A stretch of 35,703 nucleotides of DNA from Desulfobulbus sp. (GTDB taxonomy: Bacteria > Desulfobacterota > Desulfobulbia > Desulfobulbales > Desulfobulbaceae), in the NCBI GenBank assembly GCA_028684915.1, contig JAQUEZ010000053.1:1-35703 (forward strand). Reading direction: 5' to 3'. A program made the translations under genes and the position numbers. The stretch's first letter is position 1, and the number at the start of each line of letters is the position of its first letter. Positions 4,180 to 30,606 of the stretch are shown piece by piece. The notes beneath the pieces are model-generated. The model did not search any database. It saw nothing but the letters and a program-made list of their open reading frames with translations, and was not told the DNA's origin.

Positions 4180-5100
4180 ATGAACGATCAAAAAATATCC
4201 ATCTACGAAGAAATCACCGCCAAGATCATCACCGCCTTGGAAGACGGCGTCAACCCATGGGCCAAGCCCTGGCAAACGGTCCATTACGGCCCGTTCCGCA
4301 ATGCGCTCACCAACCGACACTACCGGGGAATGAACGTGCTGTTGCTCAACCTGGTGGCGCTGGCCCGTGGTCATGTCGATCCCCGCTGGCTCACCTATCG
4401 CAATGCCGAGCAGTTGGGCGGCCATGTACGCAAGGGCGAGAAAGGGGCGTCCATTGTTTTCTGGAAGTTCCTGCCCGCTAGGGATCGGGACGGCGATGCG
4501 GAGTCCGATGCACTCACCGACGATGAACAGGAGCGGAAGCTGATCCCCTTTGCCCGCAGCTACACGGTGTTCAATGTGGAGCAGTGCGAGGGATTGGAGT
4601 TGCCGCCGTTGGTCGAAGAAGAAGCACCGGATGTGGACGCATGCAACGAGCTGGCGGAGCAGATCCTGGCCCTGCCGAACCTGAAGCATGGCGGCAACAA
4701 GGCCTGCTACCTACCGGGACTGGATATGGTAATTCTGCCGCATCGGTCCATCTTCGAGCATGGTGATTTCTACTATGCCACCGGCTACCATGAAATCTGC
4801 CACTGGACGGGCCATCCCGACCGGTTGAACCGGGTGTTCAGCACCCGGTTCGGTGATCTCGGCTATGCCTTCGAGGAACTGGTGGCCGAGATCGGCGCCG
4901 CCTTCCTTGGCACCCATACCGGCATTCCCTTTGAGAACATGCGCCATCCAGAGTATATTAGCCATTGGCTGCAGATCCTCCAGGGTGACAGCAAAGCCAT
5001 CTTCACCGCTGCTGCCAAGGCCCAGCAAGCCGCCGACTTTGTCCTCGACAAGGCTGGGATTGTCTGCGTTCAGGAAGAAACGCTGCCGGCAGCAGCATAA
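4180..5100 (+). CDS. ArdC-like antirestriction / ssDNA-binding protein
   Basis: The 306-residue product begins with an ArdC N-terminal domain (ssDNA-binding, DUF1738-like). The hallmarks are 'IITALEDGVNPWAKPW' near residue 16, 'RHYRGMNVLLL' and 'WLTYRNAEQLGGHVRKGEKG'. The C-terminal part contains a zincin-like metallopeptidase motif, 'YHEICHWTGH' near residues 202-211, with a downstream Glu-rich helix (AFEELVAEIGAAFL). ArdC proteins protect incoming plasmid DNA from host restriction early in transfer. The ATG at 4180 is preceded by CCAAGGAGCG. It is the last gene of the plus-strand backbone run and is followed by a strong terminator. Both domains look intact. Confidence 0.9.
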   Translation: MNDQKISIYEEITAKIITALEDGVNPWAKPWQTVHYGPFRNALTNRHYRGMNVLLLNLVALARGHVDPRWLTYRNAEQLGGHVRKGEKGASIVFWKFLPARDRDGDAESDALTDDEQERKLIPFARSYTVFNVEQCEGLELPPLVEEEAPDVDACNELAEQILALPNLKHGGNKACYLPGLDMVILPHRSIFEHGDFYYATGYHEICHWTGHPDRLNRVFSTRFGDLGYAFEELVAEIGAAFLGTHTGIPFENMRHPEYISHWLQILQGDSKAIFTAAAKAQQAADFVLDKAGIVCVQEETLPAAA

Positions 5101-5323: not shown

Positions 5324-6142
5324 TCATGCCGTAAATTTGAATGTCTTAACTTCTGTTGCCGACACAATCGTTTTCAGGGATTGCCCCTTTCCATAGCTGG
5401 TGCTGTAGTAATCGCTAGTATGAGCAGCGAATAGACGCGTTGTCCCCGCATCAGGGTGCCCGTATTGATTGTCGACACCCGCGCTAATCAGAACCGTACG
5501 TGGTCGAATAAGATTGAGTGCTCCTGCTGTGATGCCGTTCTTCGAACCGTGGTGAGGTGCTGCGAGAACGTCTGATGAGAGAGCATCACCGAAGTAGTAA
5601 GCGATTGAATCCCACCGATCGTTCTCAGTGTCCCCGGTGATCAAGTACGTTTTCCCTGTAGCATGCTCTTTGACTTTACACACAAGGGAACAGTTGTTTG
5701 AAGAGTTCATATCAGCGGCGTGCGGAGATAGTACCTCATATGAGAAATCCGATGAGAGCTTGCTATAGAACCGAGTGTCATTTTGCGACAGCGAGACGGA
5801 CACCCGCCTGAATTTCTTTTGAGTCTCGAATCCTTCTATAACAGAAAAACATGAGTTCGCTTCCTTCGTTTTCTTAAAGTACTTCGGGTACATAATCCAG
5901 TCGGGTCGGTATTTGTTCAAAACTATTCTCATTCCAACCTCATTGAAATGATCAGCGTCGAATCCAGTTACGATTAGACCAACAAGTTCCTTGCCATGGA
6001 GGATTGAAGCTAGCGCAGCCTTGACATTGATGACGTCATTGGTCGGGTTAATTGGAACGTACGTGTCTACGATAAACGCTTGAGACGAGCCCGTTACGAC
6101 GACTAACTGTCCCTGGCCGACATTGAGTGTATAGATATGCAT
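5324..6142 (-). CDS. ComEC-like metallo-beta-lactamase-fold protein, altered metal site
   Basis: The 272-residue protein begins with 'MHIYTLNVGQGQLVVV', typical of the MBL fold of ComEC/Rec2-like proteins (which start with a DVGQGD-type strand). The expected His-X-Asp-X-Asp-His loop reads TGFDADH near residue 59, so the first His is replaced while the Asp and final His remain. Later ligands are visible: the Asp in 'LITGDTEND' and the His pair in 'APHHGSKNG'. No membrane segments are present, so it is cytoplasmic and not a DNA-uptake channel. The ATG at 6142 lies only nine bases after the stop of the upstream membrane protein, so the two are probably co-transcribed. Substrate unknown. The altered ligand may mean one-metal use or loss of catalysis. 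Confidence 0.8.
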   Translation of the reverse strand: MHIYTLNVGQGQLVVVTGSSQAFIVDTYVPINPTNDVINVKAALASILHGKELVGLIVTGFDADHFNEVGMRIVLNKYRPDWIMYPKYFKKTKEANSCFSVIEGFETQKKFRRVSVSLSQNDTRFYSKLSSDFSYEVLSPHAADMNSSNNCSLVCKVKEHATGKTYLITGDTENDRWDSIAYYFGDALSSDVLAAPHHGSKNGITAGALNLIRPRTVLISAGVDNQYGHPDAGTTRLFAAHTSDYYSTSYGKGQSLKTIVSATEVKTFKFTA

Positions 6143-6151
6143 TCGGTTTAC

Positions 6152-6643
6152 TCACTTCTGGATATTCGCGGCGATGCGCTTCCGGATATAGGCTGTTTGC
6201 TTTCGATAGGCAGCTAAGTACAAAACAAACAATCCACAAACTATTACAATTGGTGCTGCGCGCTGGAGAAGTGCAAGATGAGAGGCTGCGTATTGGTATG
6301 CGCCAACGACTGCCATTGAAAGCATCAGCGAACAAATTGTCCGGTACATGTTGTTAACCTCGGACAGAATTTCGAGCTTCTGGTCAGTTTTTGCCGCACG
6401 CACAAAGTCCTCATATGGTGCAAATTCAACAAGCCCTAGGCACAAAAAGGCAGGTTCGATTAACAGCGAGCCTATTCGACTAACGATAGAGCCGAGAAAA
6501 TAGTATATGAAGGCCCCAACAGCCATATTCACCTGAAGGAGTTTTATGGAAGTTGACCAATCAATAAATGCAGCGAAAAGTACACCGGGAAGGAGATAGT
6601 TGAAAATGTTGTACGAACCTAGCTTCTCAAGTAGTTCCTTCAT
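6152..6643 (-). CDS. Small multi-pass membrane protein
   Basis: I chose the ATG at 6643 (163 residues) because AGGAGAAGC lies directly upstream. The ATG at 6658 is only five codons longer and precedes that site. The sequence starts 'MKELLEKLGSYNIFNYLLPG', a pattern found in uncharacterised membrane proteins of mobile regions. About four hydrophobic segments can be seen: residues 17-30, 38-60, 90-108 and 115-135. A basic tail (YRKQTAYIRKRIAANIQK) probably faces the cytoplasm. It is paired with an MBL protein downstream. In defence loci such pairs often join a cytosolic sensor or enzyme to a membrane effector; here that is only a suggestion. Confidence 0.75.
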   Translation of the reverse strand: MKELLEKLGSYNIFNYLLPGVLFAAFIDWSTSIKLLQVNMAVGAFIYYFLGSIVSRIGSLLIEPAFLCLGLVEFAPYEDFVRAAKTDQKLEILSEVNNMYRTICSLMLSMAVVGAYQYAASHLALLQRAAPIVIVCGLFVLYLAAYRKQTAYIRKRIAANIQK

Positions 6644-6957
6644 TGCTTCTCCTGTCATTTTCTGAGAGATATCTCTGTTATTTCGCCGCGGTCAGTGGAA
6701 AGTTGGCCGCAGGACATCTTGTGCGCTGAAATGCATTGTTAATACCCTTATGTATTCATCAAGGGAAATGTGTGGTTCATTTCGGTGTTTTTTAAATCTA
6801 TTAATTAGCCCCCATTTTGGGCACTTCTTAACAAGAAGTTGAATTTCTGTTAAGTATTCGGGGAATGCTTACGAATGCAAGTAACCCAGAGTGGAATGCC
6901 ATCGCCCGAATGCCGCCTCCCGAAAGGGCAAGCCCTATTTGATTACCGCCCGATATC
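6644..6957. other. Intergenic region with a gene remnant
   Basis: This 314-base spacer separates the membrane protein/MBL pair from the E2-E1-JAB gene. It is AT-rich in its middle. It holds a 58-codon open stretch on the minus strand (described separately) and a promoter may lie between 6645 and 6690. I see no convincing terminator after the E2-E1-JAB gene. Confidence 0.5.
6692..6868 (-). pseudogene. Remnant coding stretch without a start codon
   Basis: Reading the minus strand from 6868 to a TGA at 6692-6694 gives 58 protein-like residues, including 'YLTEIQLLVKKCPKWGLI' and 'HISLDEYIRVLT'. A TAA lies immediately upstream (6869-6871) and there is no in-frame ATG, GTG or TTG near the start. 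In another frame an ATG near 6900 gives a short peptide that enters the same region, so a frameshifted small gene is possible. I do not recognise the family. It may be a scar of an earlier gene at the junction of two cargo units. Confidence 0.4.
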
Positions 6958-9213
6958 TCACTTATCATCTATTTTACCCGTATACCACGTCTCTTGGTCT
7001 TCACCGACAATCAACATTAAGGCCGGTAGTCCTTCGAACTCTAGTGCAACGGCCAAGTGCGCTAATAGAACCATATCGTAACTGCTGGGCTTGGAAGAGC
7101 AATGTCGTGGATGACTATGCCATTCTCCAACATACCCGACAATATTAGCAGTCCGTTCTCCTGCGTTTTTAACAGCATCCTCTAATCCTTGGATGCCACG
7201 GATGAAACTGGTTGCGTCGGCGTGACTATCTGGCGGGGCAGCTAGCGCATCCACAATGAACACCTTATGCTGGACCAGGTCAAAGTATCCTAGTAATACG
7301 CCCCCAGTCTCGTTAGGCAGATTTTTTTCACGCTGTGAACGGATTTTACCTTGAATTTCTTCATCCCAGACAATTTGAAGACCACCAAGTTTAGAGACCT
7401 TTGTCGCTACAGCTTTGTAACTATTATCCGTAATCGAACCGGTATCAGGGTCGTAGTGCCAAATATGCAGGAATGCTTCAGATGCGGTTGAGCGTATGCG
7501 TACCATTCTGGCAAGATTCGCACCGTGGACGGCAAGGATTTCATTTTGGATAACTGCAGAAATATCACGGCAGCCGGCCCCTGCCCACAGATGTCCCTGA
7601 TGGTTGATGAGATGTTGCCTGCCCCAAGGTTGGGATATTACATGCCGATAATACTGAGATTCTATGGAGTCTAGTCGAATTGCCCGCCTCACATCCTCCA
7701 TGAGCATCACAGCTCCATACCCCGATGGTGTTACGAAGACTGATAGTGCCCGCTTAACACTATCACGGGCGGCTAGTGCTCTTGGAAAGTCGAGGGTTGT
7801 TGTTGCATCGATTACTATATCCGACAAATCCAGTGAATTTCTGACCTCTGCACTCTCCAGGTTAGTGGCATCTTCCGAAATGGCTGTTGTATTAGACGGT
7901 TGTTGAGGCATTAAATTGTCAGCTAAATTTTTTACCGCATCGACCTTTGGAAATCCGACATGACACTCCAATGAACTATGACGTGCCATATTATGCGGTT
8001 TGACAAGGTCTGAATCGACAATCGTCCATTTCCCCCATCCTGCGCGCATCCACAAATTGAACATTTCACTTCCGAGAGCACCGACTCCAGCGAGTGTACC
8101 TGTTGGCCCCTTATCCTCGATGCCGCAAGCCTGCCGAGCGAGTTCCGGCGTAAAAGCTGGTGTAATTTCAAGAGGATTAATCTCAAAATTTCGCCAGTCC
8201 TGGCGCTCTGGATTCTCGACACCAATTAGGTTCACCGCCAAATATACATTATCTACTTTCTCAAGAGCGCCACTCGCTACTCCGAGATCTGCAATGTTGT
8301 TCTGGACTATAAAACCTTTCACCACTGTACGCTCAATAGGCCCATTCATTTCTCGAAGCAGAGGGACACTTAGAATGAGCAAGGTGTTCGATGCTTGTGG
8401 TTTTACAACGAACCCGTTTTGACTGAGATCACGAATCGCGTTGAAAAGTGGTCGGGCGAATGAGGCTCCTCGATTTTCAAGTTGATCGTAAAGTCCGCCA
8501 AGAGTATGCGGAAAGTGTTCGATAGGTCCGTGTACTATTGGCGTCAGTGATAATGCGATGCAAGGTAGTTCTAGAGTTCCAGTGGTTGTACCCAGAGGAC
8601 TCATTGTCCCCATCAAGGTTAATTTATTTGAATCTTTTCCACGTCCCTCTGCGACAAGTTTGTAGTCTTTGCGGGTGACTTTGTCTTCGAAATCGTAAGG
8701 AAGAATAAGTTCGATGGGACTTTGAAAATAGAGTTGTTCAAGCTGTTGCTCAGCCCGGTGGAGAGTGCCGCTTGCGGTTTCAGCCAGCCACCACATTATT
8801 CGGTTTAGGTGTTTCTGTGGCGTCCAAGTTGCGCGAACAGCGATCCAAGGTTCAAAATAAAGACAGAGACTCGGGGGTTCTCCTTTTGGCACATGGTTTT
8901 GGTGAAGTGTAGCTGGAAAATCGATGCGTAACGCACGAACTTCGGGGATGCGATCGGCCTCGCTATGGAAAAGCAAGCCTAGTCTTTCGCGATACTCGAT
9001 GCCAACATGATTTTTTGTCGGTACTTCATCGTTTTCGCAGTCAACAACCAGGATCTCTGCATAATTCTCGCCGTAGTGTTGCCGTCTCGCCTCAACGATG
9101 GCAAATTTTTGGTGGCGTATAATTATGTTCCAGGTTTCTTTTGCCCAAGGCACAGTTAAACAATCTGGAAGCGAGCCCTCGATAATTTCACCGAATGAAT
9201 AATATGTCTCCAA
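6958..9213 (-). CDS. E2-E1-JAB triple-fusion ubiquitin-like conjugation protein
   Basis: The 751-residue protein combines three domains. Residues about 1-170 look like an E2 (UBC-like) domain, with the candidate active Cys at 117 in 'PPSLCLYFEPW' followed by 'W.P..HL' and 'WWLAETASGTLH'. Residues about 360-560 form a ThiF/E1 adenylation domain: GVGALG near 376, VDSDLVKPHNMARH near 399, and a candidate E1 Cys near 548 in 'AGAGCRD'. The C-terminus is a JAB/JAMM deconjugase with Glu near 635 (NETGGVLLG) and HSHP...PSSYD near 699-713. Bacterial E1-E2 (Cap2) and JAB (Cap3) act in type II CBASS and Bil-type systems; here all are in one chain. No ubiquitin-like gene or cyclase is visible nearby. It lies four bases after the MBL gene. 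Confidence 0.88.
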   Translation of the reverse strand: METYYSFGEIIEGSLPDCLTVPWAKETWNIIIRHQKFAIVEARRQHYGENYAEILVVDCENDEVPTKNHVGIEYRERLGLLFHSEADRIPEVRALRIDFPATLHQNHVPKGEPPSLCLYFEPWIAVRATWTPQKHLNRIMWWLAETASGTLHRAEQQLEQLYFQSPIELILPYDFEDKVTRKDYKLVAEGRGKDSNKLTLMGTMSPLGTTTGTLELPCIALSLTPIVHGPIEHFPHTLGGLYDQLENRGASFARPLFNAIRDLSQNGFVVKPQASNTLLILSVPLLREMNGPIERTVVKGFIVQNNIADLGVASGALEKVDNVYLAVNLIGVENPERQDWRNFEINPLEITPAFTPELARQACGIEDKGPTGTLAGVGALGSEMFNLWMRAGWGKWTIVDSDLVKPHNMARHSSLECHVGFPKVDAVKNLADNLMPQQPSNTTAISEDATNLESAEVRNSLDLSDIVIDATTTLDFPRALAARDSVKRALSVFVTPSGYGAVMLMEDVRRAIRLDSIESQYYRHVISQPWGRQHLINHQGHLWAGAGCRDISAVIQNEILAVHGANLARMVRIRSTASEAFLHIWHYDPDTGSITDNSYKAVATKVSKLGGLQIVWDEEIQGKIRSQREKNLPNETGGVLLGYFDLVQHKVFIVDALAAPPDSHADATSFIRGIQGLEDAVKNAGERTANIVGYVGEWHSHPRHCSSKPSSYDMVLLAHLAVALEFEGLPALMLIVGEDQETWYTGKIDDK

Positions 9214-9216
9214 TGT

Positions 9217-10350
9217 TCAACCTGCTCGCGGTGGTACTGACGCTATTATAGATGCTGCGCCAACCATTTTCGTGGAAGCCAATTTTCCGCCGTTTTTCGA
9301 GATTTCGAATACGATTGGCTGTGGCTTAGACTCAGAGGGCTCTTCCATTGTGACTAAAAAACGTCGTCCTTTGATCTTCTGGAGATAATTGACATAAGTA
9401 TTCTTGGCCTGAATATGTGGTGGTTGTTGTTGTTCATAAGCAGCTTTGTCAATGCCAATTAGATTGCTGGAACTAACGATATATGCATCCTTCTGCCCAT
9501 GGAGCAATAATTCAGCTACGCGATCGACCGGGGTCGTCTCTCTGTCGCCCTTGTCTGGCCCAAGCGCAAGATAACTACAATGATGTGGGATGTTGAATAG
9601 ATCCCAGTCGAGGCGATCATCGTTGCCGTGATAAGTGGTTATATCGACGATATCCGCAAGAACCTCATGTTCCGAATCTCCCGTTGCGAAATAATTGAAG
9701 CGAGTACCCAATACCTCAAAACGCACTTGAAAAATAAGTGCCGCTTCGTTGCGCATGATGTCGTTCCCATCTATGTGTTTTATGAATGGGGAATGGCAGA
9801 AGAATTCGACTCCATCAACGTTGAGGCTGAAATTAGGGACTAGCTGTCCAGCATCTGTAATCAGGCTGCGGCGATCGTCGACGTGCAAATCGTTATCCTC
9901 AAGCCATTGCTTGAGCTTTTCTGGCTTGGAAAAAACTCGAATACCTTTGCCTTGCTTGAGACGATAACGGGCTTCCTGGCGCCAGAAAATGAATTCATCG
10001 CTTTGTTCATCGTTTGTCGCTGTTTCGAGAATCATTGCTGCTGGTACCCAGAGCTCTTTGATCTTAATGCGTCCATCACCTTGATACTTGGCGGCATGTA
10101 AAAGCTCAAAAAACTCAGTACTGTTACAGATATGATCACTGTCACCATGAGTAAAAGCAACGACATCAAAATAATCGCGCTGTTCCTTGTCCAACTCATC
10201 CTTCAGGTGCTTTTTGAGGTTAAAATCCTTTGAACCATCTGCTTCACTCTTTTTTTGGTGCCGAAAATCAAACAACAACCGCTTCCCGTTTTCGAGGATG
10301 ATCTGGCTGGTGTCGCCGTTGCCTACTGGGTAAAAAATGATTTTATGCAC
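9217..10350 (-). CDS. Metallo-beta-lactamase-fold protein partnered with E2-E1-JAB
   Basis: I prefer the GTG at 10350 (377 residues, starting HKIIFYPVGNGD after the initiator) because GGAGAA lies eight bases upstream. A TTG at 10380 would add ten residues without a ribosome site. The metal loop 'THGDSDH' near residue 72 keeps the His-X-Asp-X-Asp-His pattern, an Asp follows in 'FATGDSEHE', and the later His pair is in 'NIPHHCSY', so the two-metal centre looks intact. The layout fits ComEC/RNase J-like soluble MBL proteins; the substrate could be nucleic acid or a nucleotide. MBL genes beside E2-E1-JAB fusions have been noted in surveys of prokaryotic ubiquitin-like systems. Its stop and the next gene's start are four bases apart, so translation is probably coupled. 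Confidence 0.85.
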   Translation of the reverse strand: MHKIIFYPVGNGDTSQIILENGKRLLFDFRHQKKSEADGSKDFNLKKHLKDELDKEQRDYFDVVAFTHGDSDHICNSTEFFELLHAAKYQGDGRIKIKELWVPAAMILETATNDEQSDEFIFWRQEARYRLKQGKGIRVFSKPEKLKQWLEDNDLHVDDRRSLITDAGQLVPNFSLNVDGVEFFCHSPFIKHIDGNDIMRNEAALIFQVRFEVLGTRFNYFATGDSEHEVLADIVDITTYHGNDDRLDWDLFNIPHHCSYLALGPDKGDRETTPVDRVAELLLHGQKDAYIVSSSNLIGIDKAAYEQQQPPHIQAKNTYVNYLQKIKGRRFLVTMEEPSESKPQPIVFEISKNGGKLASTKMVGAASIIASVPPRAG

Positions 10351-10420
10351 TAATTTTTCTCCGCTACCTGTTACCGTCAATCTCGTTCACTGAACCAGAT
10401 GAACGAGCGCTCAAAAAAAA

Positions 10421-10975
10421 CTACCCTATTCGGTAGTATGAAAATTCTACTCCACCAGACTCAGCAATATCTTCTCGGCGAAGCAGGAATCCCTGCTCCC
10501 AGAGTTGCTTGAATTTGGTACTTGCGTTGGCAATCGACATCGCCGGTATGGATGCTGCAAATTCAGCTGCTTTAACGCTCTCTCTCGTAATCGCGAACTC
10601 AAATGCACTCAATGCACCCCGACTTGGCCCGATTCCAATTGGTCGTCCTTTATTGCCCTGCCAAAGCATGATTGGTTGTTTTTTGCGCGAGGCTGCTGCC
10701 TCCCAGTTTTCGAGCATATCCTGGTCGGTAAGATCGACAAAACAGAAACCTTTTTGCCCCCGATAACGGCGTGCAAGCTCCACAATTGTTTCGGAAGCGA
10801 AAGATATGTCGACACGTTTTGTTCCTTCAAGCGAAACCATGAAGATCATGAATCCCGGATGATCCTCAACAAAATCAATCAATTTCTGATAGACTTTGCG
10901 ACCATGATCACGACCCCATCCCTCCGGGGTTTCCATAAATTCGCACAGCTTTAAGGTTAGGGTATTCTGATTCAT
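10421..10975 (-). CDS. STAS-like (DUF4325-type) protein with C-terminal winged-helix-like region
   Basis: I prefer the ATG at 10975 (184 residues, MNQNTLTLKLCEFM). The ATG at 11023 lies inside the GHKL gene. Residues about 10-100 resemble the STAS-like DUF4325 fold ('VDISFASETIVELARRYRG', then 'GFCFVDLTDQDMLENW'). The C-terminal 60 residues look like a small helix-turn-helix ('SIANASTKFKQLWEQGFLLRRED'). STAS proteins are the partners of GHKL kinases in partner-switching regulation, and a GHKL ATPase gene lies directly upstream, overlapping or 22 bases away depending on the start. A regulatory pair controlling the downstream MBL and E2-E1-JAB genes is a reasonable inference. No classical phosphoacceptor motif is evident. 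Confidence 0.75.
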   Translation of the reverse strand: MNQNTLTLKLCEFMETPEGWGRDHGRKVYQKLIDFVEDHPGFMIFMVSLEGTKRVDISFASETIVELARRYRGQKGFCFVDLTDQDMLENWEAAASRKKQPIMLWQGNKGRPIGIGPSRGALSAFEFAITRESVKAAEFAASIPAMSIANASTKFKQLWEQGFLLRREDIAESGGVEFSYYRIG

Positions 10976-10997
10976 TGAATCCACTAAACCAGAATTA

Positions 10998-11918
10998 TCA
11001 TTTCTGGTCAAGATGGAAATCAAAAATAATATGGGTTCCCCAAATCAAAGGCAAATTTTCCGAACAGTATGCTTTGTTGTTTGGCTGGTATGTCCCTTGA
11101 GCAGGGACAAGAAGAGAGCGCACTTTTGGCAAGCGCACCTCTAAATTAGCGTTGAATTTAATAGCTTTTTGAGCACTACCTCTTAAACCACATCCTCTAT
11201 CTCCACCATGCCGTGATATTCCTTGTCGAAATATTTCGACAAGAAGTTGGAGGTCTGAAAGGCCGACCAAGTTGGGATATTCAGCATGGAGAGACGGCCT
11301 GAGGGTTTCCATTATCCCAAGTCCGCTATCAGAAACAACTACCTTGAGACTATTACCATTACGATAGAGTTGTGAAGCAGCATAACCATCAAGAGGAGTT
11401 TGGCTGTGGGAAAAGATATTATCAATTAACTCAGCAAAAATTGTCCAGGCTGCCCCTTCCAACTCATTGGCATCTGTTCGTCCAGAGCATGATTCCATCA
11501 AGGTATCTGTCAAACGAGAAGGTAGACTTTGATCTCTATGACTTTTGTTAATTGCCTCAATTTCAACAAGATTTCGATTTGTTCTCCCATAAACAAAAGC
11601 ACCAGATAAAATGGGCCGATCCGGGAGTACAGTAATCCCTGGAGCTAGATGATCAAAAAATCCCATTCTATTCAAATATCCCATTGCGCCAGATTCACCT
11701 TCCGAAAAATCCAACACTACATTTTTGCAACAGTGATCGAGTTGATTTGCAAGTGAAAGAAGGCGAACCGCCGTTCCTATCATAACTTTGCAGTTAAATG
11801 GAAAGGAAAATACTATTTTTGCGGATGTTGTTTCATGAGGATAATCGTTGGACGAGAGAGCCTCTTCAAAACGATTTTCGTCAATCCAGGTTGCAGGGAA
11901 TTTGATCTCCGTCATCAA
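10998..11918 (-). CDS. GHKL-type ATPase (histidine-kinase-like)
   Basis: The 306-residue protein has the Bergerat-fold motifs: N box 'AELIDNIFSHS' (Glu 163, Asn 167), G1 'SDSGLGI' (196-202) and a G2-like 'GDRGCGLRG' (239-247). The N-terminal 100 residues have a STAS-like look ('NVVLDFSEGESGAMGYLNRMGF'). No dimerisation helix with phospho-His and no membrane segment are seen, so it resembles anti-sigma-type or MORC/HSP90-like GHKL proteins more than a sensor kinase. The ATG at 11918 was kept; a second Met follows at once. It opens the four-gene run GHKL, STAS-like, MBL, E2-E1-JAB, 45 bases after the methyltransferase gene, all minus strand. Confidence 0.8.
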   Translation of the reverse strand: MMTEIKFPATWIDENRFEEALSSNDYPHETTSAKIVFSFPFNCKVMIGTAVRLLSLANQLDHCCKNVVLDFSEGESGAMGYLNRMGFFDHLAPGITVLPDRPILSGAFVYGRTNRNLVEIEAINKSHRDQSLPSRLTDTLMESCSGRTDANELEGAAWTIFAELIDNIFSHSQTPLDGYAASQLYRNGNSLKVVVSDSGLGIMETLRPSLHAEYPNLVGLSDLQLLVEIFRQGISRHGGDRGCGLRGSAQKAIKFNANLEVRLPKVRSLLVPAQGTYQPNNKAYCSENLPLIWGTHIIFDFHLDQK

Positions 11919-11963: not shown

Positions 11964-14900
11964 TTAAAACAAGCTCCCTTGGCGTTCGTCTTTTTTGGCT
12001 TTGCGGGTTCTTTTGGTTGTGGTTTTGGGTGGTTTGGTGGTGGCCTGCTCGGAGGCGCGCTGGTGGTTAAGGGCCAGTAGGCGTTTGAGGATCTCTTTGC
12101 GGGCTGTGGGGCTGATGGTGTAGCGGACACGGTCGTTTTCCGCCAGGGTTTCCATTTCGTGGAAATCGTGATCGAGGTCAAGGTCGGACCAGCCGTAGGC
12201 GTCGCGGATGGCGTTGTCCAGTTGGCGGTGCAGGTTGCGCAGTTCGAGGATGGACTGGTAGCCGGCTTCGGCCTCTTCTGAGGATTTTTTGCTGACCTTG
12301 GCGACGTGTTCGGGGGTGAGGTCGCGGCGGTGGAAGTGATTGTAGATGTCGGTGAGGCCGAGCCAGAGCTGGAGCATGAGGCGGCGGCGATGTTCGTGGT
12401 AGTGCTCGCCGATTTCAGCCAAGCTTGGAAGGCAATTTAGCCAGAGTTCCTGTGGAAAAGGGAAGGTGTCGAAACACAGGGAAGGGGAATAGTTTAACCT
12501 TGTTTCCAGTGCTCCACTGTATTTTCGCGCCCAAACTTCGTGCAGAGTCGATTGGACCACCGTATAGAGATCCCAACGATCAGTAGCGAAAACATATAAT
12601 CTGTGTGTAAAGACAATATTGGTTGGAACGGATGAAAAATTTAAATATTTTGTAACAACAGCTGCGACAAAACAACGATCTATTCCGCGAATACCGTTAT
12701 ATAATCCCGTGGAACGTTCGGCGTATTGCCACCATCGCTCACGCCGAGCTGCGCGGTTAACCTTCTCTCTCTCGGGCTTTACGAGTTGTTCAATCCTCTC
12801 GAAAGCTTCCCCATACACCTGAGCTTTATCCAAGGGCCAATCAAAGAAGTTTATAATTTTCCGCCCTGGTGCCTGGTCTGGCTGGTTGTTGATCTCATGT
12901 CCATTGGTAACCGGAAAGATGACTTCGGCCAAGTGCGGATTGTTTGACTTCATGGCATCTGCTTCTTGGTGAGAGAGGAGAAATCCCTCGCCCAAAAAAA
13001 TCGAACCCTGAAAAAGACGATTTCTATTTTCTGGAAGCGCTTTTGGTTCACTCAAGTCATGACAATCTTCAAATAAGGTGCTTATAATCGATACATATTT
13101 TCCATCCAGCATTCGTTTCCCAAGCCAAACGCCTTTGTGGAGGGCAACCAGTGCGACCACCAGGTTTGCCCTGCCCGGCCATTTGATGCCGCGTACCGCC
13201 ATGTTGATCATTCCGCCCTGTTTGATCACTTGTTCTAGTCCGTCCTTCCTTATGTCTCCATCCTTGATTGAATTTGTAGTAATGAAAGCGGTGAACCCTT
13301 CGGGACGCAGCAAAGAAAATATTCTCCGGACAAAATAGACGACCAAGTCGGAAAGCCCGGTTGGGGCATACTGCCATTTCACATATCCACAAAGGGCATG
13401 TCCATAAGTGCCGCTGAGCTTTTGCCCTCCCAAATATGGAGGGTTCCCTAAAATGCAGTCAAAGCCTCCCAGTTCGATTATCTCGGGAAACTCCAAGAAC
13501 CAGTGAAAAAAACATTTATCGAAACTTCGAGCCCAAGCAGCGGCTGTAGTCTGCCCCTGTGGTTGGCGCTCTCCTGTCAAATAGCTTCGATACTCGGCAT
13601 CGGTGACGAACTTCTGCACATTCTCCGGAGTCTTCTCCTGATAGAATTGGGCAATGGGAATGGCGGCAATCTGCTGAATGTGCAGGGTCTCTTTTTCCTT
13701 GGCAAAGCGCTGGTACCGGTGTTTTTTGGCTTCGATCTCCTCGGGGGTTTGCTCCGGGAGTGCGGAGAGTTCCCGCCAACCACGCAGAATATCGTCCAGT
13801 TGCCTTTTGATTTGCGGTGAGTAGTCCTCGACACGAGTCTGACCGCTCTTATGCTCCAGTCGTTCAGCCTTGTTGCGTTTCCTCAGGATGGCAGCGGTTT
13901 CCTTGTCGTCACCCGGCAGCGTCACAAAAGCCTCATCCGGCACCCCACGCTCCAGTTCCTCTCGCCGGGCAAAGCCGACAATGGCGTTGCCGCATTTGAT
14001 GTGGTGATCGAGAAAGTTGAGGGGCTCGCCGGGATTATGGGCCTCCAGCCAGAGGGCAACTTTGCAGAGCTCGACGGCCAGGGGATTGAGGTCCACACCG
14101 TAAATGCAGTGGCGGATGACGGCGCGGACAGCGGAACGAAAGGCTGAAGGGGATGGCTGTTCCTCGCCAGTGCGGACATAGGCCAGTTCTGTGGCGATGC
14201 GCCGGGCGGCGGCAAGAAGAATATGACCGGATCCGCAGGATATGTCGGCCACGCGCAGCGAGAGCAGGGCCTGCTCCGGATTGTCTGCCTGGAGCTTTTC
14301 GGCGATCAAATAGTCAAGCGAATGTTTGATCAGCGGCTGGACCAGGTCGTCCGGGGTGTAGTGGGAACCTGTGGCGGCGCGGACATCGCCTTGGGCAAAG
14401 ATGAATTCGATCCGTCCATCCGTGAATATGAAGACAGGTTGGTATTCCAGTAAGCCCTCGTAGACAGAACCGAACTCCTCGACATTGAGGGCAGCATAGT
14501 TGACACGGATGAGCTGGCTGCTGTCCGGATGTTGATAGAGGCCAAGCGAGCGCAGACAGCCGAGGAGAACATCGTTGCCCAGCGTACAGGTGGCCAGGGG
14601 GCCGATGGCGTTAGGATCGAACAAGTCACCTGCCAGAGGAGCGAGTCCCATTTTCCGGCCAGGACCGCCGGACTCAAAGAGACGGAAGGTGGTCAACAGA
14701 GCCAACCAGAGATCCCGATGCCGGGGATCGGCCAGGTGCTGTTTTTCGGAGAGACGCCGCAGACGCTGCAGGCTGTAGAAGCGAAAGTACATCTCGCGGT
14801 GAGCGCTCTCGGCATCGGTCGGGAAAACCAGGCCCCGCTCCTCGATAACGAGAAGAAAGAGCAGCCGGTAGATCAGACGGAGCAGGTGCTGGTAGTACCT

Positions 14901-15731
14901 TTCCGGGGTGAGCTGTCCCGATTGGATTTGTTCGTGCAGATCATGGTTGCCCTGTTGGCTGAGGAAGCCGTTGGCAAAGGCCAGGATCGCTTGTTCCACC
15001 GCCTTGCTCAGGCCTTCTCGGATGCGGGCGCCGGAATCAAGGGAATCCTGGTGGTAGCGCTCCAGCCAGCAAGCGGAGGAATCCTCGACGCTCTGGGGCA
15101 GGCGGCTGGCGTGCAGCAAACGGTAGAGAACGGCGAAATCGGCAAAAAGGCCGTCGGAGAAGATGCGATCGAGATCGAATTCAAGATAGGTGAGCTTGAT
15201 CAACCGGGAGCTGTCGCGCAGGAGGCGGAGGACAAGGCCATTGGTAACTAGGCCGTAAAGTTCGTCCTTGAGGTTGAGATATTCCTGAACCATGGCATGG
15301 GCAGACATCCGCGGGCCGCCGGTCTTTTCCGGTTTGCGGTCGAGCCCGGCCGTTTCGCGGCAGCCGATGATATGGATGGGGGTGTTGCCCCGGTTAGTGG
15401 TCCGATGGGAAACGGGATAGAGCTTGTCGTTGATGGTGACGCCGCGTGCCTGATATTCCAACTGATGACCAAGGAGGCCGAGCAATGGGACAACCCAGTT
15501 ATTGCGGGTTTCACTGGTGGCCGGAGAGTCAGGCTTGAGGGGTTCGAGCTTACGCTGGAAGATGCGCCAGTAATCCTGGGCATCGGCCCAAGCCCGGGCA
15601 ATCTCATCCTTGACCTTGGTGCTGCCGTCCAGGCCAAAATCGACGGGGCGCTGGCCGGCGATATCCTCCAGCCGGTCGAGAATGTCCGGAGAAAAAATTG
15701 CGCCTTCGATGCGGATGGAGGGATAATTCAT
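11964..15731 (-). CDS. Eco57I/PglX-like adenine-specific DNA methyltransferase
   Basis: The 1255-residue protein contains SAM-binding motif I 'VADISCGSGHILLAA' near residue 495 and catalytic motif IV 'NPPYLGG' near 762, which define a gamma-class N6-adenine methyltransferase as in Eco57I, BREX PglX and DISARM DrmMI. The N-terminal 450 residues are helical and could hold a degenerate nuclease or scaffold; I cannot see a clear PD-(D/E)XK. Residues about 765-1095 should hold the target-recognition region. The C-terminus is basic (KTTTKRTRKAKK). It overlaps the upstream Schlafen-like gene by ATGA (15728-15731). DNA from about 12440 to 13450 is visibly AT-richer than its flanks, which suggests exchange of the recognition domain. 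Confidence 0.88.
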   Translation of the reverse strand: MNYPSIRIEGAIFSPDILDRLEDIAGQRPVDFGLDGSTKVKDEIARAWADAQDYWRIFQRKLEPLKPDSPATSETRNNWVVPLLGLLGHQLEYQARGVTINDKLYPVSHRTTNRGNTPIHIIGCRETAGLDRKPEKTGGPRMSAHAMVQEYLNLKDELYGLVTNGLVLRLLRDSSRLIKLTYLEFDLDRIFSDGLFADFAVLYRLLHASRLPQSVEDSSACWLERYHQDSLDSGARIREGLSKAVEQAILAFANGFLSQQGNHDLHEQIQSGQLTPERYYQHLLRLIYRLLFLLVIEERGLVFPTDAESAHREMYFRFYSLQRLRRLSEKQHLADPRHRDLWLALLTTFRLFESGGPGRKMGLAPLAGDLFDPNAIGPLATCTLGNDVLLGCLRSLGLYQHPDSSQLIRVNYAALNVEEFGSVYEGLLEYQPVFIFTDGRIEFIFAQGDVRAATGSHYTPDDLVQPLIKHSLDYLIAEKLQADNPEQALLSLRVADISCGSGHILLAAARRIATELAYVRTGEEQPSPSAFRSAVRAVIRHCIYGVDLNPLAVELCKVALWLEAHNPGEPLNFLDHHIKCGNAIVGFARREELERGVPDEAFVTLPGDDKETAAILRKRNKAERLEHKSGQTRVEDYSPQIKRQLDDILRGWRELSALPEQTPEEIEAKKHRYQRFAKEKETLHIQQIAAIPIAQFYQEKTPENVQKFVTDAEYRSYLTGERQPQGQTTAAAWARSFDKCFFHWFLEFPEIIELGGFDCILGNPPYLGGQKLSGTYGHALCGYVKWQYAPTGLSDLVVYFVRRIFSLLRPEGFTAFITTNSIKDGDIRKDGLEQVIKQGGMINMAVRGIKWPGRANLVVALVALHKGVWLGKRMLDGKYVSIISTLFEDCHDLSEPKALPENRNRLFQGSIFLGEGFLLSHQEADAMKSNNPHLAEVIFPVTNGHEINNQPDQAPGRKIINFFDWPLDKAQVYGEAFERIEQLVKPEREKVNRAARRERWWQYAERSTGLYNGIRGIDRCFVAAVVTKYLNFSSVPTNIVFTHRLYVFATDRWDLYTVVQSTLHEVWARKYSGALETRLNYSPSLCFDTFPFPQELWLNCLPSLAEIGEHYHEHRRRLMLQLWLGLTDIYNHFHRRDLTPEHVAKVSKKSSEEAEAGYQSILELRNLHRQLDNAIRDAYGWSDLDLDHDFHEMETLAENDRVRYTISPTARKEILKRLLALNHQRASEQATTKPPKTTTKRTRKAKKDERQGSLF

Positions 15732-17287
15732 GGCTTGGTTGTTTCGAGAGTGGCCAGCAGGTCGCGACCTTTATCGGTAAGACGGTAACGTTGCTTGCTG
15801 CTGGTGGGTTTGTCAGGAATGGTCATCTCCAGCAAGCCTCTCAGAAGCAATGGCCTGATAACCTGGTTCCTGAACTTGGTGCGGTCGGCCCTGCCGATGA
15901 GGGCCATAAGATCGGCAAGAGCGCTCTCCTGCCCGCACTTTTGCAGGATTTCAACCTGGTGCCGACTTGGTGCCGACCTGGTGCCAGGACGAGGTTCCTG
16001 CTGATCGCCTTTTACCGAGGTTGAGACTTCAAGCGCCGTCGGATGCACTGGCAGGCGAACCATGAAATAGCTGTAGTCTTCGTCGAATTCAAATTCAGGA
16101 GGTGGAGAACCATTTCTGGCCATGGCCTCAAGAATTTTCGGGATACCGGTTGAGCGACCCTCGGTAAATTCCAGCTCTTTGAGGAACTCACCAAGGCGGC
16201 GATTGCGATAGCGGCGCGAATGGGCGCGGCCGAGGCGGAGCTGATCGAGGCGCACCGAGCGGTCCGGTCCGGGATAGCTGAGCACCACCAATTCATCATG
16301 CATGATGCGAATTTCCACTGGTTCGCGGACATCGTATCCCCGGTGATAGACCGCATTGACCACGGCTTCCTCGATGGCATCATAGGGGAAATTCTCGACA
16401 CGGGTGGATTCGGCCCGGCCATGGTGCTTGATCACTGTTTCGCTGATGAAATTGCGCTTGATGTAGTCGAGGGCATCACGGGTCATCTGAGGCAGAGGGC
16501 CTCTGAAGACCTTTTCCGAGAATTTGTTGCCGCCGGGTCCCTCCTTGGGGAACCATACCACGTCAATCTGCATCACCGGGAAAAATCGCCAAGGCTCAGG
16601 ATGGAACATCATGAGCCCGACATTGAGCGGAAACGGCGATTCGACCGGGCCGCCAATGATCCCCATCTGTCGCCCCAACTCCTCAAGGGAAAGTTTTGGG
16701 GCCTGGCGCAACAAATCGCTGCCCACTCGCTGTAAATAGTCGAGCATCAGATCGCGGGAGAGATCCTCAATCTTGGCCTGCTGATTGAAACGATCATCAA
16801 AGGGAACCGTGGCGGTCAGGGACATGAGTTCGGTTTCATCGGCACCCCGGGCGCGGATGGTGCTGGAACCCTTGCGGATGTAATAGGCGTAGTCCTTGCT
16901 GTCCTTGGCCAAAGATCGTTTGGCCTTGTACGGGCGGGTCTGGCCGCCCAAAGCCCAAAGAACCAGGATATGCCTGCCTTCGATTTCCACGGGCACGACA
17001 AGGGGATGGTAATAGGGAATGATCGCGTTGAATCCCAGGCCCAGCAGTTCCTTCTGGATGCCATCGATTCTGGCGCTGTCGATACCGGCCGGTGGAAGCA
17101 CCGGGCGTCCGTTTTCTTCCGCAATGCCGATGATGATATAGCCGCCGCCAAGATTATGGAAATCGTTAGCAAAGGCGCAGAGGGTGTGGAGGATTTCCTC
17201 GGGATTCCAATCCGCCTTGAATTCGAGACGCTCCCATTCCACGGGCTTGCCCATGAGAAGATCGTTGATGTTCACAGGAAGAGGCAT
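15728..17287 (-). CDS. Schlafen-like AlbA_2 / HATPase_c_4 ATP-binding protein
   Basis: I chose the ATG at 17287 (519 residues, MPLPVNINDLLMG) since GGAG lies ten bases upstream inside the end of the helicase gene. The longer frame has no such site. Residues 10-140 form an AlbA_2/Schlafen divergent AAA domain ('VEWERLEFKADWNPEEI', then 'GGGYIIIGIAEENGRPV'). Residues about 290-430 match the HATPase_c_4 part ('DAIEEAVVNAVYHRGYD', 'GRSTGIPKILEAMARNG'). The C-terminal 90 residues look like a winged helix ('YRLTDKGRDLLATLE'). Schlafen-like proteins bind nucleic acid, and some cut tRNA or RNA in phage defence. The gene is tightly coupled to the helicase upstream and the methyltransferase downstream. 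Confidence 0.85.
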   Translation of the reverse strand: MPLPVNINDLLMGKPVEWERLEFKADWNPEEILHTLCAFANDFHNLGGGYIIIGIAEENGRPVLPPAGIDSARIDGIQKELLGLGFNAIIPYYHPLVVPVEIEGRHILVLWALGGQTRPYKAKRSLAKDSKDYAYYIRKGSSTIRARGADETELMSLTATVPFDDRFNQQAKIEDLSRDLMLDYLQRVGSDLLRQAPKLSLEELGRQMGIIGGPVESPFPLNVGLMMFHPEPWRFFPVMQIDVVWFPKEGPGGNKFSEKVFRGPLPQMTRDALDYIKRNFISETVIKHHGRAESTRVENFPYDAIEEAVVNAVYHRGYDVREPVEIRIMHDELVVLSYPGPDRSVRLDQLRLGRAHSRRYRNRRLGEFLKELEFTEGRSTGIPKILEAMARNGSPPPEFEFDEDYSYFMVRLPVHPTALEVSTSVKGDQQEPRPGTRSAPSRHQVEILQKCGQESALADLMALIGRADRTKFRNQVIRPLLLRGLLEMTIPDKPTSSKQRYRLTDKGRDLLATLETTKP

Positions 17288-17291
17288 GGGG

Positions 17292-20171
17292 TTACTCCGG
17301 CAGCAGAATGTAGAGGCCCAGCAGATCCATGGGGAGCACAGGATACACGACCTGGAATTTTTGATGATCCATGAGGCTGCTGAAACGCTCATGGGCGGCT
17401 ACCAGTTTTTTTGATTGGGCTTCGGCGACACTCAAAAACTCGGTATCCAGAGTTTGGAGGAGCTTGAGTTCGTTGTCGAGAAAACCGGCTCTTGCCTGCG
17501 GGGATAGGTTGGATGAGGCCCTCGCGGTGCCCAGCAGGTTTTTGGCTTCTTCGTGGGCAAGAAATTCCTTTAGCTGTGGTGTTCCCCGCCATCCCCAGAG
17601 CAGCATTTCCTCAGCCACAATCTGATGGCCGCTTTTGGTTTGCTCAATGACATTGCGGCAGCGGAAGAGCAGCAGCGTGGTTTTGATACTGACCTGCCGG
17701 GTGCGAACAATGGCACAGCGGGCGGCACGCTTGTCAAATCGATTCATGGTGTTGGCCATGACCAGCTGGCAGAGTTGTTCGACAAAACGGTGATTGCGTC
17801 CCAGGTAGTGATATCCTTCAGGGGTGGGCGAGAGAAAGCTGATTTTGAGCGGATCTCCAGGAGGCAGGAGTTCCCGGAGTTGCGGCGGCAGGTTGCCGGT
17901 GATGACGCGATAACCCTTGGCATCCAGAATAACCTGCACACCAAACAGGTTATTGAGAACGGCAACAACGAATTCCTCCACTGCCTTGGGATCACCGATG
18001 GCCTCGTCCATCTCGCGCAGGTCAGCTTCAATTTCTTGGGCCTTAATGGCGTTCTGGGCAAAGATGCTGCGGGAAACTTTTTCCCGCTCCGCTGCCTCAT
18101 CGACCTTACGACTGATGTTTGCCTTGGCCTGCTCGGCCTCGGAGAGGCCTCCGAAATCCAAGGTGAGCTGAATTGGACCACCTCGTTTTCTGGCGCCCTT
18201 GACAGAGATGCGACGATCAGGATTGAGCAGCAAGGCCTGGGTAATGGTGTCGATGATGCTTTGCGAATCCTCCGGAAAGGGGACGTTGATGCCGGTGGCT
18301 CGCTTGATCTCCCTGACCTTGCGCAAGAGGACATCAAGAACGATGCCATCGATGGGATTGTCGGCGCCGTACAGCAGACATGCTTTGACCTTGGGCGCTA
18401 CCTGGCCGTACCGATCAACCCGGCCCTCCCGCTGTTCCAGTCGGTTTGGGTTCCAGGGCAGATCGTAATGCAGGATACCGGTGAAATCCCGTTGCAGGTT
18501 AATGCCCTCGCTTAAACAGTCGGTGGCGATCAGCACCCGCTGGGGAGATTTACCCATTTCTTCAATCCGTTGCTTGCGGAGTTCATCGGGCAGTTCACTG
18601 GTAATGACCTGGATATCGAGCTTGGGAAATTTTTTCTTGAGCGCTGGGGCAAGGTGGGCACCCACATAATTGGCAGTGGCGATATAACGGCAAAAAACAA
18701 CCGGATGAAATCCTTCATCCAACCAATCTTCAATAATGAGTTCCGCCGAGGCAAGTTTCTGGTCATCCTTGAGGTTAGCCAGAGTCTCTAGTTGAAGAGC
18801 AAAGGCTCGGAGCGACTGACGTTGTGTATTGGTCCAGTCCTGACGCTCGAAGAGCTGGGTTGGGGCGTTGTCGCCCTCAAAGCCGAATTCTGTGTCCCGG
18901 ACAGGATTCTCCGCTTCCTCTTCAAATACGTCATAAATCGTCGGCTGGTTATCATCGGTTATGGTCGTCAGGCTCGTGAGCCGGGTCTTGAGCATCTCAA
19001 TGCCGGCGGCCGGACTCGACATAACACCGCGCAGGAGTGCCAGCGCAGTCCAATACTGGACCCGTTTATGACCGCCTCGTTTCAGATCCGGAGCAATCAG
19101 CTTGCGGGCAAATTCGATGATTTCTTCGAAAAACGACGAATATTTCTCCCCGAGCTCATAAAACCATTCAAAAGCCTCGCGTTCGGGGAAAGGGGTGTCC
19201 TCTTTCGTCGACCATTTGGCCACATCGGCCCTTTTGCGTTGCACAAAGAATCGGGACAACTCTCGACGTTGGGCCTGATTGGAATTGGGCAGGTCGAGAA
19301 ATTCGAATTCCTTTCGCAGCAACCCAAGGAGTGAGTGGAATTCCTCGGGTTTGCCGCTGTGGGGAGTGGCGGTGAGCAGAACGAGATGCTGATCCGGTTT
19401 GCGAGCAATACTGCTGACAAGGTGGTAGCGTTGCTGCTGACTGTTCGAAGCGCCGGCGGGGCGTGCTCCGGTATGGGCCTCATCGACAATGACCAGTTCG
19501 GGGCATTGTTCGATGAAGACATTTCGCCGGTTGTCGGACTTGATAAAGTCGATGCTGATGACCTGATAGGGATAATAATCGTAAACGCTGGTGTCGCCCT
19601 GGATCTGCCGGTCGAGGCGAGCCTGGGTGCTGGAGCGGATGATGACGGCTTCTATGTCAAGCTTGTCTCTAATCTCCGCCTGCCACTGTTCGCAGAGGTG
19701 AGGGAGGCAAATTACGGCGAATCGTTTAATTCGCCGCCGTTCCAGCATTTCCTTGGCAATGAGCAGTGCTTCGATGGTCTTGCCGACACCGACATCATCG
19801 GCTATCAGTAGTCGGACCGTCTCCTGGCGCAGGGCCATGATGAGCGGCACCATCTGGTAGGCACGGGGGCGGAAGGAGAGTTTTGCCAGAGATCGAAACG
19901 GTCCCGCACCATTGCGGAAGGCGAGCCGGGCAGAGTCGAAAAGTAGCCGTGCGGTACCGATATCGCCGAGATCTGCTGCTTCCGGTGGAGCAAATCGGGC
20001 ATCCACAGGTTGGTCGGAGGGAATGGCCAGGGGCAGATAGATCCCCGCGATTTCCTCGTCCGAACCTCCCAAGGGTTTAATGATCAGCAGATCTTTGTCT
20101 TCAGAGGGCAGGACGATCCAGTCCCGGCCTCGCAGAGAAACCAGTTTTCCGGGTTGGAGCATGATACTCAT
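17292..20171 (-). CDS. SNF2-like helicase, DrmD-like
   Basis: The 959-residue protein begins with a small beta domain ('LQPGKLVSLRGRDWIVLP', 'KPLGGSDEEIAGIYLPL') followed by the ATPase core: Walker A 'DDVGVGKTIEA' near residue 125 and DEAH near 230. The second RecA half shows 'LIATDCLSEGINLQ' and 'NRLEQREGRVDRYGQ'. The overall arrangement resembles DrmD of class 1 DISARM and other SNF2 proteins paired with methyltransferases in defence islands. Such proteins translocate on duplex DNA. Its ATG overlaps the stop of the upstream DUF1998 helicase as ATGA (20168-20171). A second start at 20162 is possible. The helicase call is firm; the DrmD relationship is moderate. Confidence 0.88.
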   Translation of the reverse strand: MSIMLQPGKLVSLRGRDWIVLPSEDKDLLIIKPLGGSDEEIAGIYLPLAIPSDQPVDARFAPPEAADLGDIGTARLLFDSARLAFRNGAGPFRSLAKLSFRPRAYQMVPLIMALRQETVRLLIADDVGVGKTIEALLIAKEMLERRRIKRFAVICLPHLCEQWQAEIRDKLDIEAVIIRSSTQARLDRQIQGDTSVYDYYPYQVISIDFIKSDNRRNVFIEQCPELVIVDEAHTGARPAGASNSQQQRYHLVSSIARKPDQHLVLLTATPHSGKPEEFHSLLGLLRKEFEFLDLPNSNQAQRRELSRFFVQRKRADVAKWSTKEDTPFPEREAFEWFYELGEKYSSFFEEIIEFARKLIAPDLKRGGHKRVQYWTALALLRGVMSSPAAGIEMLKTRLTSLTTITDDNQPTIYDVFEEEAENPVRDTEFGFEGDNAPTQLFERQDWTNTQRQSLRAFALQLETLANLKDDQKLASAELIIEDWLDEGFHPVVFCRYIATANYVGAHLAPALKKKFPKLDIQVITSELPDELRKQRIEEMGKSPQRVLIATDCLSEGINLQRDFTGILHYDLPWNPNRLEQREGRVDRYGQVAPKVKACLLYGADNPIDGIVLDVLLRKVREIKRATGINVPFPEDSQSIIDTITQALLLNPDRRISVKGARKRGGPIQLTLDFGGLSEAEQAKANISRKVDEAAEREKVSRSIFAQNAIKAQEIEADLREMDEAIGDPKAVEEFVVAVLNNLFGVQVILDAKGYRVITGNLPPQLRELLPPGDPLKISFLSPTPEGYHYLGRNHRFVEQLCQLVMANTMNRFDKRAARCAIVRTRQVSIKTTLLLFRCRNVIEQTKSGHQIVAEEMLLWGWRGTPQLKEFLAHEEAKNLLGTARASSNLSPQARAGFLDNELKLLQTLDTEFLSVAEAQSKKLVAAHERFSSLMDHQKFQVVYPVLPMDLLGLYILLPE

Positions 20172-25515: not shown

Positions 25516-25519
25516 TTGA
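25490..25519 (+). other. Possible nine-codon leader ORF before the PLD-SNF2 gene
   Basis: An ATG at 25490 opens a nine-residue frame (MLSYRNIHL) whose TGA at 25517-25519 overlaps the TTG start of the next gene (25516-25518). This stop-start overlap could couple translation. The ribosome site is weak, so it may also be chance or reflect a frameshift near the start of the large gene. Confidence 0.3.
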
Positions 25520-30226: not shown

Positions 30227-30233
30227 CTTCCCC

Positions 30234-30557: not shown

Positions 30558-30606
30558 CGTGGTCTCCTCCAAAGAGATTTTTTGAAATATCTGCCGTTCT
30601 GGCAGG

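Follow-up and report, generated by a model that had tools for sequence, protein, structure and literature searches.

A candidate conjugation operon beside a CapK-CapS switch in Desulfobulbus sp., with a glycine-tailed MBL enzyme as its probable modifier

Contig JAQUEZ010000053.1 of Desulfobulbus sp. (assembly GCA_028684915.1), analyzed over its positions 1 to 35,703 and called the window below, looks from its sequence like a plasmid-like stretch carrying an apparent anti-virus gene set next to a DNA-damage switch that would probably turn it on. Four neighboring minus-strand genes encode a CapK-like GHKL protein, CapS, a metallo-β-lactamase (MBL) fold protein and a fusion of E2, E1 and JAB domains; all four open reading frames (ORFs) lie at 6958..11918, where a preliminary description made from the sequence alone had placed them, and its proposal of a candidate ubiquitin-like conjugation system with its own switch is supported at the sequence level. 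We consider it quite probable that these genes form a conjugation module like that of type II cyclic-oligonucleotide-based anti-phage signaling systems (CBASS), but with a ComEC-like MBL where the cyclase would stand and with a damage switch and a membrane effector added. The MBL itself is probably the modifier, by analogy with cGAS in type II CBASS, because its C-terminal glycine tail is conserved and follows the lineage of the E2-E1-JAB protein. A broader proposition is also probable: that a ComEC-like MBL nuclease acts as a ubiquitin-like modifier without a ubiquitin fold, the second enzyme class after the CBASS cyclases to be joined to targets by E2-E1 through a glycine tail gained in evolution. 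The tails would be clade-specific (PRAG, HG, G(F/Y)G, TYG and TQG/SQG) and fit the E1-E2 lineages, and both the damage switches (CapKS, CapW-like WYL, perhaps CapH+CapP) and the membrane effectors would be swappable. The features of the core are as follows, the likely start codons of CapK, CapS and the MBL having been chosen from the sequence and from relatives.

10998..11918, minus strand: CapK-like GHKL kinase with an STAS-like N-terminal part and no helix-turn-helix (HTH); likely start ATG 11915
10971..10979, no strand: candidate narrow CapS operator TTCA-N1-TGAA, overlapping the likely CapS start codon
10421..11023, minus strand: CapS, STAS plus winged-HTH repressor; likely start ATG 10975, 184 residues
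10382..10407, no strand: candidate wide CapS operator CTCGTTCA-N10-TGAACGAG, between capS and the MBL gene
9217..10380, minus strand: MBL-fold enzyme, 6A-MBL family (NF058524); likely start GTG 10350
9220..9231, minus strand: codons for the PRAG tail at the MBL C-terminus
6958..9213, minus strand: E2-E1-JAB fusion, 751 residues (NF058523, Pfam domains, alignment A1)
8695..9075, minus strand: E2 domain with Cys117 (Prok-E2_A, 91 bits)
7789..8094, minus strand: E1 adenylation part with GVGALG (ThiF, 48 bits); the candidate thioester Cys548 lies beyond it
6994..7359, minus strand: JAB/JAMM isopeptidase domain (Prok-JAB, 45 bits)

Pfam profiles place Prok-E2_A at residues 47-173, ThiF at 374-475 and Prok-JAB at 619-740 of the 751-residue chain, each above its cut-off, and residues C117, C548, E635, H699, H701 and D713 are invariant across the 31 sequences of alignment A1, which includes the window. 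These domains and residues bear out the earlier assignment of E2 (Cys117), E1 (GVGALG, Cys548) and JAMM to a single chain; the one basis for the predicted E2 fold around Cys117 is the Prok-E2_A profile. The three parts stand in the order that the core of operon type 6a, or 6A-MBL, requires, and the protein belongs to NCBIfam family NF058523 (6A-MBL_cap2_3; 651 bits against a cut-off of 320). Such fusions beside MBL genes were, as the preliminary description stated, already known from surveys; they are operon type 6a (Iyer et al. 2006, PMC1779556).

The MBL belongs to the companion family NF058524 (6A-MBL_enzyme; 402 bits against a cut-off of 220). Among 38 aligned sequences including the window, H77, D81, H82, D234, H265 and H266 are invariant and D79 is kept in at least 90% (numbering omits the start residue). 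The metal ligands are intact, as described before, in an HxDxDH form that differs from the classical HxHxDH. Because the MBL profile matches solved chains of the ComEC type, its nearest being a competence protein and ComEC (two matches, covering profile positions 5-79 only), our best guess from these sequence comparisons is that the MBL is a nuclease; remote PADLOC matches are to RTasMBL (40 bits) and LmuA (38 bits). A Pfam scan of 20 window ORFs detected no CD-NTase or cyclase family, nor was one detected among the ORFs given to PADLOC and NCBIfam. Likewise, no ubiquitin-like family was found in those 20 ORFs, small ORFs lying outside the scan, and the window ORFs scanned include no trypsin-like protease. 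The earlier remark that neither a ubiquitin-like protein nor a cyclase gene is visible holds for the 20 ORFs scanned.

The window MBL ends in VPPRAG. To place this tail among relatives, we used an E2-E1-JAB profile scan of genome contigs, taking the best 80 of 468 confirmed loci together with 4 plasmid loci, 84 in all; 77 of them have a called MBL next to E2-E1-JAB. The remaining seven fall outside the tail count: L038, L063, L077 and L084 begin near the sequence end, L078 has a partial ORF, L075 has its MBL 434 bp from a broken E2-E1-JAB ORF, and L030 has none. Among the resulting 78 MBLs (77 loci plus the window), the pattern [RK][AV]G within the last 12 residues is present in 77, exactly C-terminal in 56 and followed by 2-8 residues in 21. 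The sole exception, L076, is frameshifted and has APRAGA in another frame, and strict RAG occurs in 74 of the 78. The pattern is absent from E2-E1-JAB ORFs (0/85), MBL2-type proteins (0/19), WYL proteins (0/15), CapS (0/5) and CapK (0/2), and occurs in 13 of 1009 unrelated ORFs longer than 200 residues, in one of them exactly at the C-terminus. When a database was searched with the MBL profile, the motif was present in all of the best 120 of 3707 matches, which are the closest relatives, and exactly C-terminal in 109. In the MBL alignment the final glycine is invariant and the arginine and alanine are conserved in at least 90% of sequences, while none of the preceding 29 positions reaches 90%. 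Since the codons vary freely among the 77 tailed MBLs (every codon for Arg, six, for Ala, four, and for Gly, four, is used, in 65 distinct 12-mers), selection acts on the tail as protein, and the same variation rules out the tail as a ribosome-binding or start signal for the next gene. The residues that follow the motif in 21 of these 77 proteins recall ubiquitin precursors.

The preliminary description had named either the MBL or the STAS protein as what might be conjugated through its C-terminus. For the MBL, the PRAG tail gives that suggestion good support, the MBL being what would be attached to other proteins; for the STAS protein it is rejected, as the CapS proteins of the cyanobacterial loci L003 and L007 end in ..KWTE while their MBLs end in PRAG. 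As a separate observation, in L030 (1962-2630) an E2-E1-JAB ORF that looks intact is directly preceded by the N-terminal ~217 residues of an acetate kinase, which continue in frame as ..SLPPRAG; here the MBL body was probably lost by a deletion that spared just the final codons. The MBL of L075, set 434 bp apart, ends in APRAGTI.

Among deeper relatives still recognized by the NCBIfam families, other glycine tails occur, namely HG, G(F/Y)G, TYG and TQG/SQG; the MBL of L162, which ends in KVGFGAE and matches the pattern through KVG, is grouped with the G(F/Y)G tails. Twenty hand-chosen pairs of MBL and E2-E1 were compared by their best BLAST segment after removal of the last 30 MBL residues. 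In four loci (L001, L042, L051 and L032), the MBL bodies score 304-378 bits against five HG-tailed MBLs and 67-142 bits against five window-type MBLs, whereas their E2-E1-JAB proteins score 234-553 bits against window-type partners and 55-88 bits against HG partners; all four tails are RAG. By these scores the tail appears to go with the E2-E1-JAB lineage rather than with the MBL body. Twelve of 12 further partner ORFs, two of which (L127 and L171) duplicate earlier loci, best match a reference of their own tail class, GYG going with GFG and SQG with TQG. A further case is L106 (8010-11521). Its MBL body falls in the clade of the four conflicting loci (252-322 bits) and, at 375 bits, exceeds the threshold of the MBL family, but its E2-E1 shows no kinship with the rest (25-54 bits) and has Prok-E2_B in place of Prok-E2_A. 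A separate ORF carries Prok-JAB, and the MBL tail is GGGGYA; to judge from these sequences, partner and tail look to have been exchanged with a CBASS-type set. The argument does not depend on the quick MBL tree, from which L006, L011, L039, L045, L070 and L076 (short, over-extended or frameshifted) and the duplicate L169 had been dropped.

Upstream of this putative immune operon, capK stands immediately before capS. The GHKL protein scores 21.5 bits with HATPase_c, below the cut-off of 26.4, and aligns with WP_001567866.1 at 36% identity over 308 columns (E 1.3e-55), its N166 aligning with the kinase Asn at position 218. On an Enterobacter plasmid the gene for WP_001567866.1 precedes that for the published CapS, WP_001567865.1, and from this place it is taken to be the published CapK. 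The Bergerat-fold ATPase of the preliminary description is thus supported by homology and by the kept kinase Asn, the HATPase_c match itself staying below cut-off. The N-terminal ~60 residues of WP_001567866.1, its HTH part, are absent from the window protein although the STAS-GHKL part aligns, and for this reason we name it a CapK-like, HTH-less variant. The neighboring STAS protein, earlier seen as a STAS-like partner with its C-terminal winged HTH overlooked, is CapS: it matches the PDB chains 9z72/9z73 (E 1.1e-28) and 9z71 (E 2.2e-25), and the aligned sequence of 9z71 is that of WP_001567865.1. The window CapS keeps the phospho-serine S54 (here S58; S74 in the long ORF) and all of the DNA-contact residues N145, K151, G169 and G170.

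In the published system, CapK is activated by single-stranded DNA and phosphorylates CapS, freeing TTAA operators with 1-bp and 10-bp spacers; deletion of the HTH in CapK had no effect that was seen (Chambers et al. 2026, PMC13373217). A wide site, GTTCA-N10-TGAAC, whose pattern was chosen after the site had been seen among inverted repeats, has 1 match in the window against 0.03 expected, and the narrow site TTCA-N1-TGAA has 2 against 0.81. TTCA-N10-TGAA lies at the same place between capS and the MBL gene in L005 and L058; the narrow-site arrangement also occurs in L058 and, by eye, in L005. In four cyanobacterial loci an N11 form precedes capS, and the gap between capS and the MBL gene contains no such site. 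Homology, kept residues and operator spacing together suggest that damage-triggered derepression may operate here. The preliminary description knew of no characterized system that adds a GHKL-STAS pair; this claim fails, as CapK-CapS is such a pair and seven capKS-linked "MBL operons" have been counted (PMC13373217, EMBO J 2026). These published operons also rule out the cassette as an unprecedented combination.

Across the 84 loci, some of which lack upstream sequence, CapKS lies directly upstream of the MBL/E2-E1-JAB core in six (L003, L005, L007, L008, L009 and L058) and a WYL gene in 15. The synteny of the GHKL-STAS pair with the core, proposed earlier as a four-gene cassette, is thus conserved but optional. 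On two alphaproteobacterial plasmids, an HTH gene and an ImmA/IrrE peptidase gene, known from annotation only, stand upstream and resemble CapH+CapP. A search of 398 Pseudomonadota genomes with the MBL family found seven over the cut-off, including the center genome and L127 (the genome of L060); G215 had no more than a shortened MBL-like ORF below the cut-off. In all six non-center genomes an E2-E1-JAB-like ORF adjoins the MBL (best matches 131-495 bits), and the MBL tails are RAGTHGLR, KHGDDD, LGHG, AHGCRNKDS, MRAG and GYGD. One of 292 cyanobacterial genomes, the center genome, matched at E 1e-20, and seven of 395 Bacteroidota genomes, again including the center, matched a TYG-tailed query. 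Viral-contig scans gave 3, 1 and 13 loci, L106 being the useful one, and the family also occurs on plasmids of Klebsiella (169/335 matching records) and Escherichia (26/335). Four loci are copies of others (L127 of L060, L171 of L069, L169 of L061, L174 of L007). Separately, a Streptomyces plasmid (L157, 3501-8296) is annotated with an MBL gene, separate ThiF and Mov34 genes and then a patatin gene, and by this annotation would be a split form of the MBL/E2-E1-JAB/patatin set.

By its sequence the unit seems to reach past 6958..11918 and to take in three further genes:

6828..6968, minus strand: patatin phospholipase gene, 5' remnant (46 codons, then a stop; tblastn)
6152..6658, minus strand: membrane protein of the PADLOC candidate family PDC-M48A (194 bits), a possible effector
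5324..6142, minus strand: second, ComEC-like MBL (TIGR00361, 85 bits, below the cut-off of 190; PDC-M48B, 34 bits)

The remnant was recognized with the patatins of L005 and L012 (E 9e-9 and 4e-9), and the membrane protein and ComEC-like MBL that follow it resemble the candidate pair PDC-M48A/B. A table of the first same-strand gene within 320 bp after E2-E1-JAB in the 84 loci, made with a crude ORF caller, has patatin in 34, with a 4-bp overlap in 21 cases and with Pfam PF01734 shown on two members. Other classes are the membrane family TM-CL2 (3-4 predicted helices) in 11, MBL-CL7 followed by a membrane protein in five, the small membrane protein TM-CL8 in four, other predicted membrane proteins in seven, MBL-CL5 in one, other genes in seven, and one truncated case; the 14 loci with none are an upper bound, given the crude ORF caller. 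In L068 and L082, E2-E1-JAB is followed directly by a member of the PDC-M48A family. The layout is like that of type II CBASS with the cyclase replaced by an MBL.

Upstream of capK, on the minus strand, 11964-25276 holds a restriction-like operon with a DruE-like helicase, a DrmD/DpdE-like helicase, an AlbA/Schlafen-type protein and a DrmMI-like methyltransferase; a Paraburkholderia plasmid (L172) has both helicases (66% and 73% identical) in this order, followed by a gene annotated as a DNA methyltransferase. On the plus strand, 25516-28821 encodes a 1101-residue protein that combines SNF2 helicase domains with a PLD-like match below threshold. Plasmid-type genes lie at 29379-33355 and 4180-5100 (TraE, a TrfA-like replication protein and an ArdC-type antirestriction protein). 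Rfam and tRNA scans of the window found nothing, promoter-like sites were no more frequent than chance, terminator-like sites numbered 14 against 7.1 expected, and a search with 20.5 kb of the window found no near-identical plasmid.

In the proposed mechanism, DNA damage from phage or from the upstream restriction-like operon would activate CapK, which would phosphorylate CapS; CapS would then leave its operators, allowing the MBL/E2-E1-JAB operon to be expressed. In relatives whose tail is extended, JAB may trim it. E1 would adenylate the C-terminal glycine of the MBL and hand it over by thioester to Cys117 of E2, so that the MBL could become attached to lysines of target proteins, from which JAB could remove it. 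Attachment may localize or activate the MBL, and the MBL together with a membrane-attacking effector (patatin or membrane protein) might stop the infected cell; this effect of attachment and the arrest through effectors are the least certain steps. As precedent, the cGAS that goes with Cap2/Cap3 has a terminal Gly or Ala by which it is conjugated, and its conjugation increases cGAMP output (PMC10097602), and one cyclase is attached to PspA (PMC11153139).

The tail could instead be a docking peptide or cleavage site, bound by E2-E1-JAB or cut by JAB, such that the MBL is regulated without attachment. The 21 of 77 tailed MBLs with residues beyond the motif offer JAB something to cut, and MBL nucleases elsewhere in defense are pro-enzymes activated by proteolysis (PMC12799240). 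However, 56 of the 77 already end in G, where cutting after the glycine would be pointless, and cutting alone does not need the invariant E2 and E1 cysteines, which makes this reading unlikely. We see even less room for a ubiquitin-like protein encoded elsewhere in the genome, with the MBL as effector only: the analysis spans the window rather than the whole genome and small window ORFs lay outside the scan, but the MBL tail is typical of E1 substrates and goes with the E1-E2 lineage, and the E2-E1-JAB-like ORF stays beside the MBL in every one of the six non-center Pseudomonadota genomes over the cut-off. Equally improbable is that CapKS is part of the restriction-like operon and stands next to the MBL operon by chance. 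The capK ORF begins ~45 bp past the methyltransferase-like ORF, and in the published set 88 of 443 capK-capS pairs directly follow a restriction-modification system (PMC13373217), yet the order capK-capS-MBL-E2-E1-JAB recurs in L003, L005, L007, L008, L009 and L058, and the candidate wide operator sits between capS and the MBL gene.

Several observations weigh against an MBL modifier under CapKS control. Alignment A2 shows a terminal Gly (..RIG) for CapS too, in 24 of its 31 sequences; the tail pattern does not count this ending, but it makes a C-terminal glycine alone weak evidence. Plain co-inheritance would also produce the 12/12 agreement of partner and tail class, and it is for this reason the conflict between body and partner in L001, L042, L051 and L032 that discriminates. 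Even there, the MBL 3' end adjoins the E2-E1-JAB 5' end, and a single recombination could move both without functional need. At the switch, the window CapK lacks the HTH of the published CapK, and the narrow operator, at 2 matches against 0.81 expected, is not significant alone. Finally, the patatin is a remnant, so the window copy may have lost part of its activity.

Publications already cover the core (2006) and the switch (2026); the MBL as substrate would be the new element. The NCBIfam name for MBL plus E2-E1-JAB, "anti-phage 6A-MBL system", suggests further existing work, and neither the MBL tail nor MBL conjugation was found in the open literature searched, of which coverage was partial. 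The conserved glycine tail offers a specific and cheap test of the substrate. If the proposal is true, unrelated enzymes became ubiquitin-like modifiers more than once in bacteria merely by gaining a tail, and the 6A-MBL family would serve for comparison in studies of how conjugation activates immune enzymes.

Among known systems, operon type 6a (PMC1779556) shares the single-chain E2-E1-JAB and adjacent MBL, and both window proteins pass the NCBIfam cut-offs. No substrate is named in the available text on type 6a, whereas for the window we propose that the MBL is the modifier through its tail, and the gene set further includes CapKS and effector genes. Type II CBASS (PMC10097602, PMC11153139) shares E2-E1 and JAB, an enzyme with a C-terminal glycine and, in relatives, patatin or membrane protein genes. 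It differs from the window, where no cyclase family appears among the ORFs scanned, an MBL stands instead, and E2, E1 and JAB are fused. The Bil and Bub pathways use E1, E2 and JAB enzymes, as the window does, but the window has no separate ubiquitin-like protein among the ORFs scanned. In addition, capKS also occurs before Bub operons (PMC13373217). With the MBL pro-nucleases HamM, Avs1a and LmuA (PMC12799240) the window shares remote MBL similarity, though no trypsin-like protease among its scanned ORFs. With the published CapK-CapS (PMC13373217) it shares gene order, the kinase Asn, the phospho-Ser, the winged-HTH contacts and, in its candidate operators, spacings of 1 and 10 bp, differing in its CapK without an N-terminal HTH and in a half-site of TTCA/TGAA rather than TTAA.

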